Source: Treponemataceae bacterium
GTDB taxonomy: Bacteria > Spirochaetota > Spirochaetia > Treponematales > Treponemataceae
Direction of reading: 5' to 3'
DNA length: 34,221 bases
Assembly: GCA_024680915.1 (NCBI GenBank)
Contig: JAILBN010000037.1
Coordinates: 1 to 34,221, forward strand
The notes beneath the pieces are model-generated. The model was not told the DNA's origin, did no database searches, and was given only the letters and a program-made list of their open reading frames with translations. This document shows, in pieces, positions 4,587-34,221 of this stretch (its first letter is position 1; every line of letters starts with the position of its first letter). Position numbers and translations under genes: made by a program.

Positions 4587-5054
4587 GTGAGAACTGAAAT
4601 TAAAATAGACAAATGCGAAAGGCCCTTCTGTGTGATTCATACGGAGGCGGAGACTCCCGGGATTCTGGCAGCTGCAGAGAAAATCCGCAGGCTGGACGAA
4701 AGCGGAAGGGCTACGGTGATTTCAGGATGGGACGGAGATTTCTGCATCCAGTTGAGGCAGGAGGATATTTTCAGAATCTACAGTATGGACAAGAAGGTCT
4801 ACGTGGAGACTGAGAAGGAGAGTCTGCTGCTGAAGATGAGGCTTTATGAGTTCGAGCGTCTGGCGGAGGAGTGCGGATGGACGGATTTCATAAGGATTTC
4901 CAACACGGATATAGCGAACTTCTCCAAGGTTACGGCTTTGGACATGTCTATAACCGGGATCGTCCGGGTAAAGTTCACGGACGGAAAGACTGCCATGGTA
5001 TCAAGGAGATATATGGCGAAAATAAGGGACCAACTGAACATGGTCCGTAAATAA
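4587..5054 (+). CDS. LytTR-family DNA-binding regulator
   Basis: This 155-aa protein carries a C-terminal LytTR DNA-binding domain (about residues 60-150; KMRLYEFERLAEECGWTDFI and the later KFTDGKTAMVSRRYM are diagnostic) but no receiver domain. Such stand-alone LytTR proteins are usually paired with a small membrane protein that inhibits them, and the DUF3021 protein encoded next fits that role. The start is taken as the GTG at 4587 because AAGAGGTG lies 6-7 nt upstream; the GTG at 4578 overlaps that site. It follows the exported-protein gene by 16 nt. The signal sensed is unknown. Confidence 0.85.
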   Translation: MRTEIKIDKCERPFCVIHTEAETPGILAAAEKIRRLDESGRATVISGWDGDFCIQLRQEDIFRIYSMDKKVYVETEKESLLLKMRLYEFERLAEECGWTDFIRISNTDIANFSKVTALDMSITGIVRVKFTDGKTAMVSRRYMAKIRDQLNMVRK

Positions 5055-30302: not shown

Positions 30303-33074
30303 ATGAAAACCAAACTTACACTAGATGAAAAAATAAGACTCCTGAACGGAGTGGGAAGCTGGTCAACATACGACGCAAACGGCAAGCTGCCCGTAATAAA
30401 GATGAGTGATGGTCCTCACGGCCTCCGCAAGCAGGATGAGGAAAAATACAGCGACATAAATGACAGCAAGATATCCACCTGCTTTCCCACCGCCAGTTGC
30501 CTTGCCTCCAGCTGGAACAGGGAGACCCTGGCCCTTGTGGCGAAAACCATAGGCGAGGAAGCCGTGGCCGAAAAGGTGGACATAGTCCTGGGCTGCGGCA
30601 TGAACATAAAACGATCCCCCCTCTGCGGCCGTAACTTCGAGTATTTCGCAGAAGATCCCTATCTTGCCGGCGAGCTGGCCGTGAATTATGTAAAGGGTCT
30701 TCAAAGCACTGGAACAGGAGCCTCCATAAAACATTTTGCCGCCAACAATCAGGAAAAAAGACGGCAGACCTCAGACAGCATAATAGACGAACGTGCCCTC
30801 AGGGAAATCTATCTTTACGCCTTCGAAAAGGCTGTCAAAGAGTCATCCCCCGCGACAGTCATGGAATCCTACAACAAGTTGAACGGCGAATACGTCAGCC
30901 GCAGTCACCGCCTGCTGCAGGAAATCCTCAGGGAGGAATGGGGCTTCCAGGGAGCCGTGATCTCTGACTGGGGAGCCGCCATAAACATAGCCGAATGTAT
31001 AAAAGGCGGACTGGACTTAGCCATGCCGGATTCCTTCGGCTTCCATACGGAAGAGCTGAAGAAAGCCCTGGCAGAAGGCCGCCTGACAGAGGCTGACATA
31101 GACAGAGCCGTAGAAAACATCGTGAGGCTTGCAAAACGGCTGAAGCCGGACTTTTTCGACGAGGGTGCACGCACCAGTGATGGCGCAGGCAGGGAAGCAG
31201 GCAGAACTTCCCCGACAGACTCCGCCAACGTCTCCCACCAAGCAGAGGGTATTTCGCCGGAGCTTTTCGCAAAGGCCCACGACATCGCAAGAAAAGCCGC
31301 CTGCGACTCGGCCGTCCTGCTGAAAAACGACGGAATACTACCCATAAGAACGCCAGAAAGCCACACAGGCAGCCCCACCAGCGAGACCGACAAGGCAAGT
31401 GAGGAGGCCGGCAGCCCCTCAGTAGGCAGCCACACCAGCGAGACCGACAAGGCAAGTGAGGAGGCCGGCAGCCCCTCAGTAGGCTGCCCCACCAGTGACG
31501 CCCACAAGGAAGGCGAGGCCGACGACAAAGCCGGAGCCAGTAAGCCAGAGCTGATCATTATAGGCGAGATGGCCCAGAAGATACGCTACCAAGGAGGCGG
31601 CTCCAGCCACATAAGCACAGCCCCCATAAAGGACGCAATAAAAGCCTTCAGCGACAAAGGCTTCAAGGTATTATACCAGCAGGGCTACTCCGAAAAACTC
31701 GCCACAGAAATAGATGCCACACAAAGAGACGACACAAAAGCCGACAAGCCTGCAAGCAGCAGAAAGGCCGAAGAGCTTGCCCAAGCCGCCCTGAAGCTTT
31801 GCCAGAAAGCTGCAGCCGATAATATACCGGTCCTCTTTTTCTGCGGACTCACAGACAAATTCGAAGGCGAAGGCTTTGACCGAGACAGACTGGACATTCC
31901 AGCCCAGCAGCTATCCCTCCTCAACCGCATCATAAAAACAGGCTGCCCTGTAATAGCAGTCACCTTCAGCGGCTCCCCTATCTCCATGCCCTTCGTCAAG
32001 GATGTAAAGGCTATACTCCACATGTACCTTGCAGGAGAAGCCAGTGCAGAAGCCTGCGCCGACCTGATCACAGGAGAGGTCAACCCCTCAGGAAAGCTTG
32101 CCGAGACCTTCCCTCTCCGTGGAGAGGATGTTCCCTCCGCCCCATGGTTCGCAAAAGAGACAGACACCGTTGAATACAGAGAAAGCATTTTTGTGGGCTA
32201 CCGCTATTACGAAAGCTTCAAAATCCCGGTCCTCTTCGAGTTCGGATACGGACTTTCCTACAGCAGCTTCGAATACTCAGACCTGAAAGTCACACCGCCC
32301 GATGCAAACCAGAAAGTCACAGTCACCTTCACAGTAAAAAACACCGGCTCCCTAAAGGGCAGCGAAATCGCTCAGATTTACGTACTCCCCCCCGACAGCG
32401 GAATAATCCGCTCAAAAATAGAGCTGAAGGGCTTCGAAAAAGTAGAGCTCGAAGCTGGCCAGTCAAAGCAAGTGAGTATCACACTAGATAACAGAAGCTT
32501 CAGCATATACAGCCCGGAAAGAAAGGATTTCGTCATACCGGAAGGAGAATACACAATAGCGGCCGCCGCCTCCGTTAAGGATATAAGACTCACTGCCACA
32601 GTGCAGCTTACAGGCCTCAGCCTTGATTCCCAAAAGAAGGATTTTCCCTCCTATTTCCCAAAGGCCGAAGGCGCGGATGACAGCACCCAAGGCTACAGCT
32701 CACCAAAAGGGACCTTTGATGTACCCCATGACGAATTCGAAAGGCTCTACGGCCTTGGCTTCAGCGGCAAAAGATCCATTCCAGAGCACAAGACACCCCA
32801 AAAAGGCTCCTTCACCCTGGAGAACAGCATCTCCTCCATGGCTGAAAGCTCCCGCTTCTCCCGCTTTTTCATGCGTACCTTCGAAAAAATCATTTACTTC
32901 CAGAACCGGGACAAAGAAAAGGATGATCCAGCCGTGAAAATAAGCATCCAAGCCGTGAAGGAAAATCCCCTTGAAAGCCTAATAAGCACCAGCAACGGAC
33001 AAATCTCAGCCAAATTGCTGAAATTCATCGTGAAAAGATCCAACGGCAGAAAAGGTCCTGAAAACAGAAAATAA
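30303..33074 (+). CDS. GH3 beta-glucosidase-type hydrolase with repeat insertion
   Basis: The 923-aa protein is a large cytoplasmic GH3 enzyme of the beta-glucosidase type. It has no signal peptide, a (beta/alpha)8 domain starting at residue 1 (KMSDGPHGLRKQ, SIKHFAANNQE), and the nucleophile D222 in VISDWGA. The alpha/beta second domain follows (AVLLKNDGILPI, LIIIGEMAQKIRYQGGGSSH), then the fibronectin III-like domain (SEIAQIYVLPPDSGIIRSKI) and a C-terminal extension. Between LKNDGILPI and the next strand, residues ~356-400 are a low-complexity Ser/Glu/Thr insert built from two exact 19-residue repeats. Similar acidic padding occurs near 285-320 and 470-490. Substrate is probably a beta-linked glucoside. 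ATG 30303 is preferred to the ATG at 30276, which lies upstream of the -10 box. Confidence 0.88.
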   Translation: MKTKLTLDEKIRLLNGVGSWSTYDANGKLPVIKMSDGPHGLRKQDEEKYSDINDSKISTCFPTASCLASSWNRETLALVAKTIGEEAVAEKVDIVLGCGMNIKRSPLCGRNFEYFAEDPYLAGELAVNYVKGLQSTGTGASIKHFAANNQEKRRQTSDSIIDERALREIYLYAFEKAVKESSPATVMESYNKLNGEYVSRSHRLLQEILREEWGFQGAVISDWGAAINIAECIKGGLDLAMPDSFGFHTEELKKALAEGRLTEADIDRAVENIVRLAKRLKPDFFDEGARTSDGAGREAGRTSPTDSANVSHQAEGISPELFAKAHDIARKAACDSAVLLKNDGILPIRTPESHTGSPTSETDKASEEAGSPSVGSHTSETDKASEEAGSPSVGCPTSDAHKEGEADDKAGASKPELIIIGEMAQKIRYQGGGSSHISTAPIKDAIKAFSDKGFKVLYQQGYSEKLATEIDATQRDDTKADKPASSRKAEELAQAALKLCQKAAADNIPVLFFCGLTDKFEGEGFDRDRLDIPAQQLSLLNRIIKTGCPVIAVTFSGSPISMPFVKDVKAILHMYLAGEASAEACADLITGEVNPSGKLAETFPLRGEDVPSAPWFAKETDTVEYRESIFVGYRYYESFKIPVLFEFGYGLSYSSFEYSDLKVTPPDANQKVTVTFTVKNTGSLKGSEIAQIYVLPPDSGIIRSKIELKGFEKVELEAGQSKQVSITLDNRSFSIYSPERKDFVIPEGEYTIAAAASVKDIRLTATVQLTGLSLDSQKKDFPSYFPKAEGADDSTQGYSSPKGTFDVPHDEFERLYGLGFSGKRSIPEHKTPQKGSFTLENSISSMAESSRFSRFFMRTFEKIIYFQNRDKEKDDPAVKISIQAVKENPLESLISTSNGQISAKLLKFIVKRSNGRKGPENRK
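31368..31495 (+). repeat. 57-bp tandem repeat inside the GH3 gene
   Basis: Two near-identical 57-bp units (31368-31424 and 31425-31481) and a partial third (31482-31495) lie in frame. They encode S-x-TSETDKASEEAGSPSVG. The two full copies differ at one base (CCC against CAC), which indicates recent duplication and a likely length-variable site. Confidence 0.9.
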
Positions 33075-33200
33075 GATAAGGAGGCGTGGTGGCAAAATGC
33101 CACCACCGGGCTTTGCGCCGTTCCGCGCTAACCGCGCTCCATTCTCCGGTCGGCATTGCCGACCGTCGAACGGCTTCGCCGCGGCTACAATCCCTCGCCC
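33075..33200. repeat. GC-rich palindromic elements after the GH3 gene
   Basis: GTGGTGGCA (33086-33094) pairs with TGCCACCAC (33098-33106). CGGTCGGC (33147-33154) pairs with GCCGACCG (33158-33165), and CGGC/GCCG around TTC follows near 33170. These are REP-like hairpins without a T-tract, suited to mRNA 3'-end protection. Confidence 0.5.
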
Positions 33201-33336
33201 TGGGGCTGATTCTCTTCGTAAAGAAAAGCCAGAAAGATATATCTGACATCGATCATAAAATCATATCAATGTATGCGTAGGGAATGACAAACCATCAGAT
33301 TTTTTTAACAGAATAGTAGAAAAGCTAAAAGTTTTA

Positions 33337-33463
33337 TATAATATATTTGTAAGGCAGTAAGCCTTCTTTTGAATCGAGGAAGTTCCTCGAGGGTTACGGG
33401 ATTATGGTTGACACAAGGAGTTGGAAGCCAATTTAAGGTGGTGTAAAACCACCTTATTTTTTT
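33337..33463 (+). ncRNA. Candidate small structured RNA with promoter and terminator
   Basis: A perfect TATAAT (33337-33342) would start transcription near 33349; the -35 is weak. The predicted ~115-nt RNA has hairpin AAGGC/GCCTT (33351-33365), a stem TCGAGGAA/TTCCTCGA (33374-33390), a short TTGG/CCAA stem near 33420-33430, and a terminator AAGGTGGT/ACCACCTT (33435-33455) followed by T7. No convincing open frame is present. It does not fit SRP RNA, 6S, tmRNA or RNase P RNA as I know them. It could equally be a leader of an attenuated or lost gene. Confidence 0.5.
33435..33463 (+). terminator. Intrinsic terminator of the candidate small RNA
   Basis: A perfect 8-bp stem AAGGTGGT/ACCACCTT with loop GTAAA, then A and T7. 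Confidence 0.85.
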
Positions 33464-33511
33464 GTTGATATTCACATAATATGATAACAATATCTAAAAG
33501 TTAACTAATCA

Positions 33512-33743
33512 GACCTTCAGAAAAACAGAAGGTCAGCAAAGCCAAGAGTTGCTTAAAATGGAAACAAACAGTTAATCGGGAGAACTGCAGCATGCTTGAT
33601 TCCTTGAACCAGGAAAATCGATGAGCACCGGATATTCAGTCAACCCTATAAGAATCAAGCTTTCAACTTATGAAAGCTTATCGAATGAAAATAGAAATGG
33701 GCAAGCACAGAAAAACATTGATTAAGAAATAGAGTATTAATCA
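33512..33743. other. Hairpin-rich noncoding stretch
   Basis: Five consecutive perfect short inverted repeats lie in ~230 nt with no supported gene: GACCTTC/GAAGGTC (33512-33534), CAGTT/AACTG (33569-33587), TTCCT/AGGAA (33600-33615), AAGCTTTC/GAAAGCTT (33657-33679) and TGATTAA/TTAATCA (33719-33743). The regular spacing suggests a folded RNA, or a patchwork of operators ahead of the Rpn gene. From 33744 to 33924 I see nothing further that can be named. Confidence 0.35.
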
Positions 33744-33924
33744 GAGCTTCTTTATAATCACTTTACTTCCCAAAAGGTCATTTTTTTGTCTCTTCCGTCG
33801 TATAAATCTTGTGCAGGGGTTCGTGAGTCGTCGCACTTGGGCACAGCACCGACAAAAGCTGTCCTCTAGCCACATCCATGCGGTCTCACCAGCCCCCGCG
33901 ACAAAAAGACACGAGAGGCACAGT

Positions 33925-34221
33925 ATGGAAAAGAAAAGACTCACCCCGGAGGAGAAATGGGAGCAGGCAACCCTTGCCAATGACTTCCTCTTCTACATGG
34001 TCATGCGTAACCACCCCGACGCATGCCAGCAGCTGCTGGAAATGCTGCTTAAAATCAAGATCGATCACATGGAGATGCATAACGAGGCCGTCATCAATCT
34101 GGAGAACGGTGCGAAGGGAATCAGGCTGGACGTCTACGTCAAGGACACCGGACGCCTCTTCGACATAGAGCTCCAGGTCACAGACACAGGCGAGCTGCCG
34201 GAGAGAGCCCGCTACTACGCC
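33925..34221 (+). CDS. Rpn-family recombination-promoting nuclease / PD-(D/E)XK transposase-like protein (partial)
   Basis: The first 99 residues are present; the gene runs off the right edge. The segment RLDVYVKDTGRLFDIELQ carries the PD-(D/E)XK catalytic residues D69, E82 and Q84. NDFLFYMVMRNHPDACQQLLEMLL is the usual N-terminal helix pair of the Rpn (RpnA-like, 'YhgA-type') family. These are DNA nucleases that promote RecA-independent recombination and are common, often in many copies, in gut bacteria and treponemes. GAGAGG lies 7 nt before the ATG. The full family length is usually about 250-330 aa, so roughly two thirds are missing here. Confidence 0.85.
   Translation, partial: MEKKRLTPEEKWEQATLANDFLFYMVMRNHPDACQQLLEMLLKIKIDHMEMHNEAVINLENGAKGIRLDVYVKDTGRLFDIELQVTDTGELPERARYYA

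Follow-up and report, generated by a model that had tools for sequence, protein, structure and literature searches.

Near the end of the window (the whole stretch of DNA analysed, 34,221 nt from a Treponemataceae bacterium), an 850-nt gap extends between the stop codon of a GH3 glycosidase gene (33074) and the ATG of a PDDEXK_2 transposase-like gene (33925). This gap contains a unit that would encode a structured small RNA about 115 nt long, with a predicted start near 33348 and an end at 33463; the PDDEXK_2 ATG lies about 460 nt past its terminator. The RNA is present as a single copy in its own genome, and the features of the unit are as follows.

33337..33342, + strand: -10 box TATAAT, read from the sequence; this copy has no good -35
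33351..33365, + strand: 5' hairpin AAGGC-AGTAA-GCCTT, from the predicted fold, outside the modelled core
33366..33434, + strand: conserved core of the RNA family, from covariance models R1, R2 and R3
33368..33373, + strand: 5' strand of P1, UUUGAA, proposed partner 33395-33400; a weak helix
33374..33390, + strand: hairpin P2, TCGAGGA-AGT-TCCTCGA, from alignment and covariation
33391..33403, + strand: conserved linker GGGTTACGGGATT (family consensus about GGGTTTCGGGCTY), from alignments
33405..33430, + strand: hairpin P3, stem TGGTT/AGCCA, apical loop CACAAGGAGTTG, from alignment and covariation
33434..33463, + strand: intrinsic terminator, a 9-bp stem-loop (33434-33456) followed by T7 (33457-33463), from a terminator scan

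The first-pass annotation had described a TATAAT box, compact hairpins and a terminator that define a unit of about 115 nt, devoid of a convincing coding frame, in a gene-free gap of 850 nt. This description holds throughout: the hairpins are those at 33351-33365, 33374-33390 and 33405-33430 plus the terminator stem, and the longest ORFs across the unit reach only 25 aa (+) and 61 aa (-). The predicted fold of the unit has an energy of -35.9 kcal/mol, compared with -25.8 (sd 3.7) for shuffled sequences (z -2.7; 4 of 200 as good), and the addition of one base brings z to -3.06 (1 of 200); the bare core 33366-33431 folds unexceptionally by itself (z -0.96). Terminator-like sites are also frequent in the region, with four in 33000-34221 against 1.4 in shuffled sequence. 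As regards the promoter, the best -35 pairing is ATAGTA-18-TATAAT, with 8 of 12 matches, and a simple promoter scan of the unit reported no promoter on the + strand. Short hairpins like that at 33351-33365 were also noticed by eye, uncounted, 5' of the core in a number of relatives.

The gap contains other repeated sequences. The stretch 33771-33887, the leader of the PDDEXK_2 gene, has copies that are 90-97% identical on three contigs of the same genome (C22, C59 and C27), of which those on C22 and C59 precede a nearly identical start of the PDDEXK_2 gene; the gene is multicopy, and the stretch may be a leader of it that is structured or mobile. The stretch 33592-33706, which lies between the RNA unit and this gene, has an 80% identical repeat at G000:C132:17333-17448, with a second matching piece adjoining it. 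A short GC-rich repeat at 33103-33148 recurs in part on four further contigs of this genome (C108, C98, C58 and C73).

Recognition of related loci

A plain DNA blast search matched 73 of 98 genomes at E<=1, and the matches inspected were mostly AT-rich promoter or terminator stretches, that is, noise. Among those set aside, L003 matches part of the core, but a long open frame covers it on the opposite strand and the remainder of the core is missing. The single distant intergenic match, L012, shares with the window a longer sequence than the aligned piece. By synteny, the GH3 orthologue in genome G001 is followed by a groEL-like gene (assigned by eye) and not by the RNA. A 16-base loop pattern, with one mismatch allowed, was found across 195 genomes at 42 places in 36 genomes, and its reversed control also matched in a number of genomes. 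Thirty of these places were read, 28 of them under frames of at least 80 codons, and the only real ones are L012 and L065; the 12 left unread include the window itself and a place in G005 later found within a copy. The window, L012 and L065 share TTTGAA, a hairpin in the same place but of different sequence, GG-TT-CGGG, and a stem-variable hairpin with the loop CACAAGGAG.

These three sequences were aligned by plain MAFFT, and covariance models were built from 3 sequences (R1), 14 copies (R2) and 28 copies (R3). Against the 274 genomes of the window's family, R1 gave 12 further accepted places, nine at E<=1.7e-6 and three, carrying the motif, at E 0.0014-0.0027, so that the family is extended by sequences outside its own definition. 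R2 brought further copies within the family and, run against 392 genomes of the phylum, added two genomes of another class; two more matches outside the family (E 0.0036 and 0.0086) were judged false. With R3, 30 places were found in the window's family, all at E<=8.8e-5 and followed by no other match within the 0.01 limit, together with two copies in 2 of the 31 genomes of the other class. The window core scores 76.3, 64.0 and 52.8 bits with R1, R2 and R3, respectively, its sequence being a member of all three models. The covariance-model search and comparison with relatives proposed by the first-pass annotation have thus reached 32 copies with a conserved structure.

Several candidates were dropped by eye as false, all of them under frames of at least 100 codons (L108-L112, L165, L166, L150, L169, L170 and L172, where L165 and L166 are the same places as L147 and L148), as was a second match of 14.6 bits in L160. 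The counts leave out L113-L123 along with unlisted R1 matches with E>=0.138, and L149 and L151-L153 along with unlisted weak R2 matches; moreover, strict filters were applied whenever more than 40 genomes were searched, and some copies may have escaped them. A pattern scan of a genome contig collection returned eight stretches, all in spirochaete records, and the same kind of scan found no match in a viral contig collection, with a pattern that in both cases misses the window copy.

Conserved structure and comparison with known RNAs

The family core consists of UUUGAA, a variable hairpin, GGGUUUCGGGCUU, and a hairpin with the loop CMCAAGGAG. Two-sided change was already present in 8 of 22 pairs of the first three sequences, a result equalled by none of 500 shuffles. 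In alignment A7 (32 copies, 31 distinct rows), which was fitted to the model, so that part of its pairing and covariation leans towards the structure, 88.6% of cells form standard pairs versus 68.4% in shuffles, two-sided change affects 15 of 22 pairs (shuffled mean 11.2) and 134 cells (shuffles 43.9, sd 4.9; 0 of 500 reach 134), and the covariation score is 0.490, compared with 0.143 in shuffled and 0.053-0.136 in slid controls. RNAalifold finds P2 and P3 unaided on A7, with compensatory change in 13 of 15 pairs. P2 keeps its position while its sequence varies among relatives, with two-sided changes in all seven of its pairs; it is unaligned in two copies, L163 and L209. For P2 and P3, then, compensated helices go beyond both shuffled and slid controls, and the copies almost certainly constitute a structured RNA family, whose shape has been preserved by evolution while many letters changed. 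This conservation, with its strong covariation, supports the earlier proposal of a possible new small RNA, against which a lack of conservation would have spoken.

Helix P1, formed by UUUGAA with UUWCGGG, is doubtful: 78.8% of its cells are paired over A7, and it is absent from the RNAalifold prediction on the family alignments. Two unpaired parts are conserved: one is the linker, about GGGUUUCGGGCUY, the other the P3 loop, which reads CCCAAGGAG in 18 of the 32 copies, CACAAGGAG in six, CCCAAAGAG in three, CCCCTAGAG in two, and CCCCATGAG, CCCAGGGAG or CCCCTGGAG in one copy each. GAG is present in every loop, GGA in 26 and AAGGAG in 24. Two candidate pseudoknots between linker and loop are each 90.3% paired; that of linker GGG with loop CMC has no covariation, and that of linker CUY with loop GAG no two-sided change. 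Single-sequence folds of six relatives gave z values of -2.95 (L124), -1.94 (L156) and -0.18 to -1.08 (the other four), several of the minimum-energy folds differing from the family structure.

The claim that the unit cannot be matched to a known family is borne out at Rfam 15 thresholds, since in the search of the window only a tRNA passes its gathering score and nothing does at the RNA unit. Within 33100-33900 there are five leads, all sub-threshold, and the loci of ten relatives gave one match (E 0.98), away from the RNA. A phage sequence search with the window RNA had no match, and a plasmid search one weak match of 37 bases (E 0.4) with no annotated feature beneath; across the Rfam, phage and plasmid searches, no known RNA or gene was seen of which the unit could be a remnant, the other outcome that the first-pass annotation had named as adverse. 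Ordinary trans-acting bacterial sRNAs are intergenic RNAs of about 100-120 nt, with promoter and terminator signals and a terminator at their end, in which conserved single-stranded stretches stand beside variable stems. The present RNA family resembles them in its promoter-like and terminator-like signals, its length of 100-120 nt, its intergenic position and its conserved unpaired parts, and differs from them in having no Rfam family at threshold and a patchy, island-like distribution. Judged by sequence, it would thus be a new family of a known kind, that of small structured bacterial RNAs, with an unusual spread and not listed in Rfam 15. To our knowledge, there has been little charting of regulatory RNAs among treponemes and related bacteria. 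No account of this RNA came up in the literature surveyed, large prediction lists (e.g. PMC2527527 and PMC8040213) lying outside the comparison. Like the present family, HMP2_2105 and HMP2_3043 are predicted structured RNAs in Treponema, placed directly upstream of ribosomal protein genes in the portion of PMC8040213 used here. That position does not fit the neighbours of the present RNA, beside whose copies no ribosomal protein genes were seen (by eye, partly by Pfam); it is by this described gene position, and not by their sequences, that the two candidates are set apart.

Transcription signals, distribution and neighbouring genes

Promoter-like and terminator-like signals accompany many of the copies, the promoter lying outside the covariance models and the U-run mostly so. 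A strict promoter pattern, TTGAAN-16/18-TATAWT, occurs within 125 nt upstream of 11 of the 32 copies, several of which are close relatives and thus do not make 11 independent cases, versus 31 of 5872 background positions (0.53%); a looser pattern is found at 19 copies versus 10% of the background. The window copy, with its weak -35, belongs to neither set. A U-run, counted as 6 or more T in 8, comes after P3 in 21 copies; in these loci, 3440 of 42441 background positions qualify (8.1%). The comparison has a slight built-in bias, as the span counted overlaps the last three model columns. Fewer than 5 T in 8 come after P3 in ten copies, among them that of the window. In most relatives the U-run is thus directly 3' of P3, while the window and at least L209 have a separate terminator. 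Terminator scans of stretches of L206 and L208 gave no site on the RNA's (+) strand of L206 and none on either strand of L208, where the RNA is on the minus strand. A hairpin CCTCTAAAAACT-GAA-AGTTTTTAGAGG separates the promoter region from the RNA in L155, L156 (copy 4968-5046) and L158 (with slightly different last base pairs); it is missing from related loci such as L160 and the other copy of L156.

Within the window's family, the carriers amount to 27 of 274 genomes in four genera (3 of 7 in the window's own genus), of which 24 hold one copy; in the other class they belong to one genus. The distribution of the RNA family among spirochaetes is patchy; several of the carriers come from animal guts, and the window too is probably from an uncultured treponeme of an animal gut. 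Two contigs, G140:C10 and G190:C71, each carry a pair of copies around a shared c2-c0-c3 gene module; the distances within the pairs are 2.3 and 2.9 kb. G003, of the window's genus, has the RNA, its promoter and its neighbours in common with genus g4. Stretches longer than 100 nt are 68-85% identical between them, a similarity that horizontal passage could explain but that does not prove it.

The copies are mostly intergenic. With ORFs taken from the earliest start codon, frames of at least 80 aa run over the core in five of the 32 (L129, L154, L155, L157 and L208), and a frame end or start touches the core in L164, L159 and L207; some of these cases are probably due to over-long starts. In 6 of 32 copies, the next downstream ORF of at least 80 aa is read from the opposite strand; in 11 of 32, an ORF of this size shares the strand of the RNA and begins no more than 60 nt beyond it or within its 3' portion. 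The neighbours include variable unknown genes, zinc-ribbon proteins (Pfam) and HipA-like and toxin-antitoxin-like genes (by eye). Three divergent copies, L206, L207 and L208, stand before members of one protein cluster, cluster 12.

A second protein family, c0, of about 150 aa (e.g. L127:6127-6600), occurs at 16 places in 15 of the 274 family genomes, 12 of them within 1.8 kb of an RNA copy, a proximity that provides no independent test because c0 was picked for lying near RNA copies. In L124-L126 the RNA is just behind the c0 gene, whose stop is at -21, -25 and -25. At the c0 places in G146, G212 and G168, a search with filters off gave no convincing RNA match nearby. c0 has no Pfam match above cut-off, and its AlphaFold model (pLDDT 72, pTM 0.71) no solved relative at E<=0.001; PADLOC matched none of four proteins (one c0 member, c1, c2 and the L206 gene). 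In G002, of the window's genus, a 17.7-bit match at L201:1982-2042 (-) lies about 90 nt behind a c0 gene, lacks the linker motif and was left uncounted; whether it is a very divergent family member or an unrelated two-hairpin element is undecided.

Possible modes of action

The reading favoured here, with a probability of about one half, is that of an independently transcribed RNA that acts in trans. The covariation, the promoter-like and U-run signals, the convergent neighbours and the patchiness all argue for it; the 11 copies with a close same-strand ORF, the 10 without a direct U-run and the poor -35 of the window count against it, as do the missing covariation in both linker-loop contacts and the fitting of A7 to the model. 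Such an RNA would be transcribed on its own, would pass horizontally together with gene islands, as the patchy, island-like spread suggests by linking it to variable genes, and would act as a regulator through its conserved exposed segments. Its likeliest working parts would be the linker UUUCGGGCUY and the P3 loop CMCAAGGAG, which are kept while the stems change. Through its AAGGAG, the loop might pair with short CU-rich sites (CUCCUU, for example), either in mRNAs or in the tail of the 16S rRNA, and the linker could be a second seed; alternatively, linker and loop may dock one protein.

A cis-acting leader or attenuator, in which P3 and the U-run form a regulated terminator before the island genes, would account for the U-run directly after P3 in 21 copies and for the same-strand ORFs within 60 nt, and it fits L206-L208, which have no direct U-run and precede cluster 12, two of them (L206 and L208) with no terminator in the stretches scanned. 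These copies above all may serve as leaders. Elsewhere the downstream genes differ, so that no one gene or pathway follows most copies on the same strand; the convergent positions, the RNAs that follow genes, as behind c0 in L124-L126, and the separate terminators of the window and L209 make the leader reading fail as a general account, and overall it is unlikely. A boundary or recombination site of island gene cassettes, working as a hairpin-forming DNA element with incidental transcription, is highly improbable: the paired copies around the c2-c0-c3 module, the patchy distribution and insertion-like differences near some copies would suit it, but 24 of the 27 carriers in the family are single-copy, promoter and U-run are features of transcription, and the position relative to genes is not fixed.

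The loop also invites comparison with CsrA-sequestering RNAs. CsrB/CsrC and RsmY/RsmZ sponges are sRNAs that expose AAGGAG in a hairpin loop and end in an intrinsic terminator, and the present family is like them in both respects; its loop CAAGGAG would be an ANGGA site. The idea is attractive in view of the CsrA sites of Campylobacter, given as AAGGA or ANGGA in hairpin loops in the part of PMC4894983 considered here; a CsrA-related ncRNA is, in addition, mentioned for L. biflexa in the part of PMC8668096 considered, where burgdorferi and T. pallidum are also named. Among the five sub-threshold leads in the window is a match to PrrB_RsmZ (E 1.5), whose 13.5 bits fall below the Rfam gathering score of 44. 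In contrast to CsrB/RsmZ, where every member carries several GGA sites in hairpin loops, there is one conserved loop site, GGA is missing from six of the loops while GAG is kept in all, and the conserved UUUCGGG linker, an extra element, is left unexplained. Over the core and 20 nt upstream, GGA is little enriched (83 in total versus 69.6 expected) and is absent from two copies. A role as a sponge of this type is, on balance, quite improbable. Through its AAGGAG loop, the family allows direct tests of whether spirochaetes possess RNAs that antagonise CsrA and of which RNAs act in trans in this phylum, and the amount of covariation makes the family safe enough to be named, sought in expression data and deleted.

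A further and decidedly unlikely reading is a mobile RNA-plus-protein module with the RNA as its constant part: it would control or partner exchangeable small proteins (c0, cluster 12 and others) and move with them between spirochaete classes, RNA and protein forming one selfish or defensive unit. As a separate observation, the genes behind the RNA in L167 and L168 (G332 and G366) both begin with MSIYENK and diverge after it, one being DNA methylase-like and the other flavodoxin/ferredoxin-like (labels given by eye); this resembles the outcome of an island inserting immediately 3' of the start codon.
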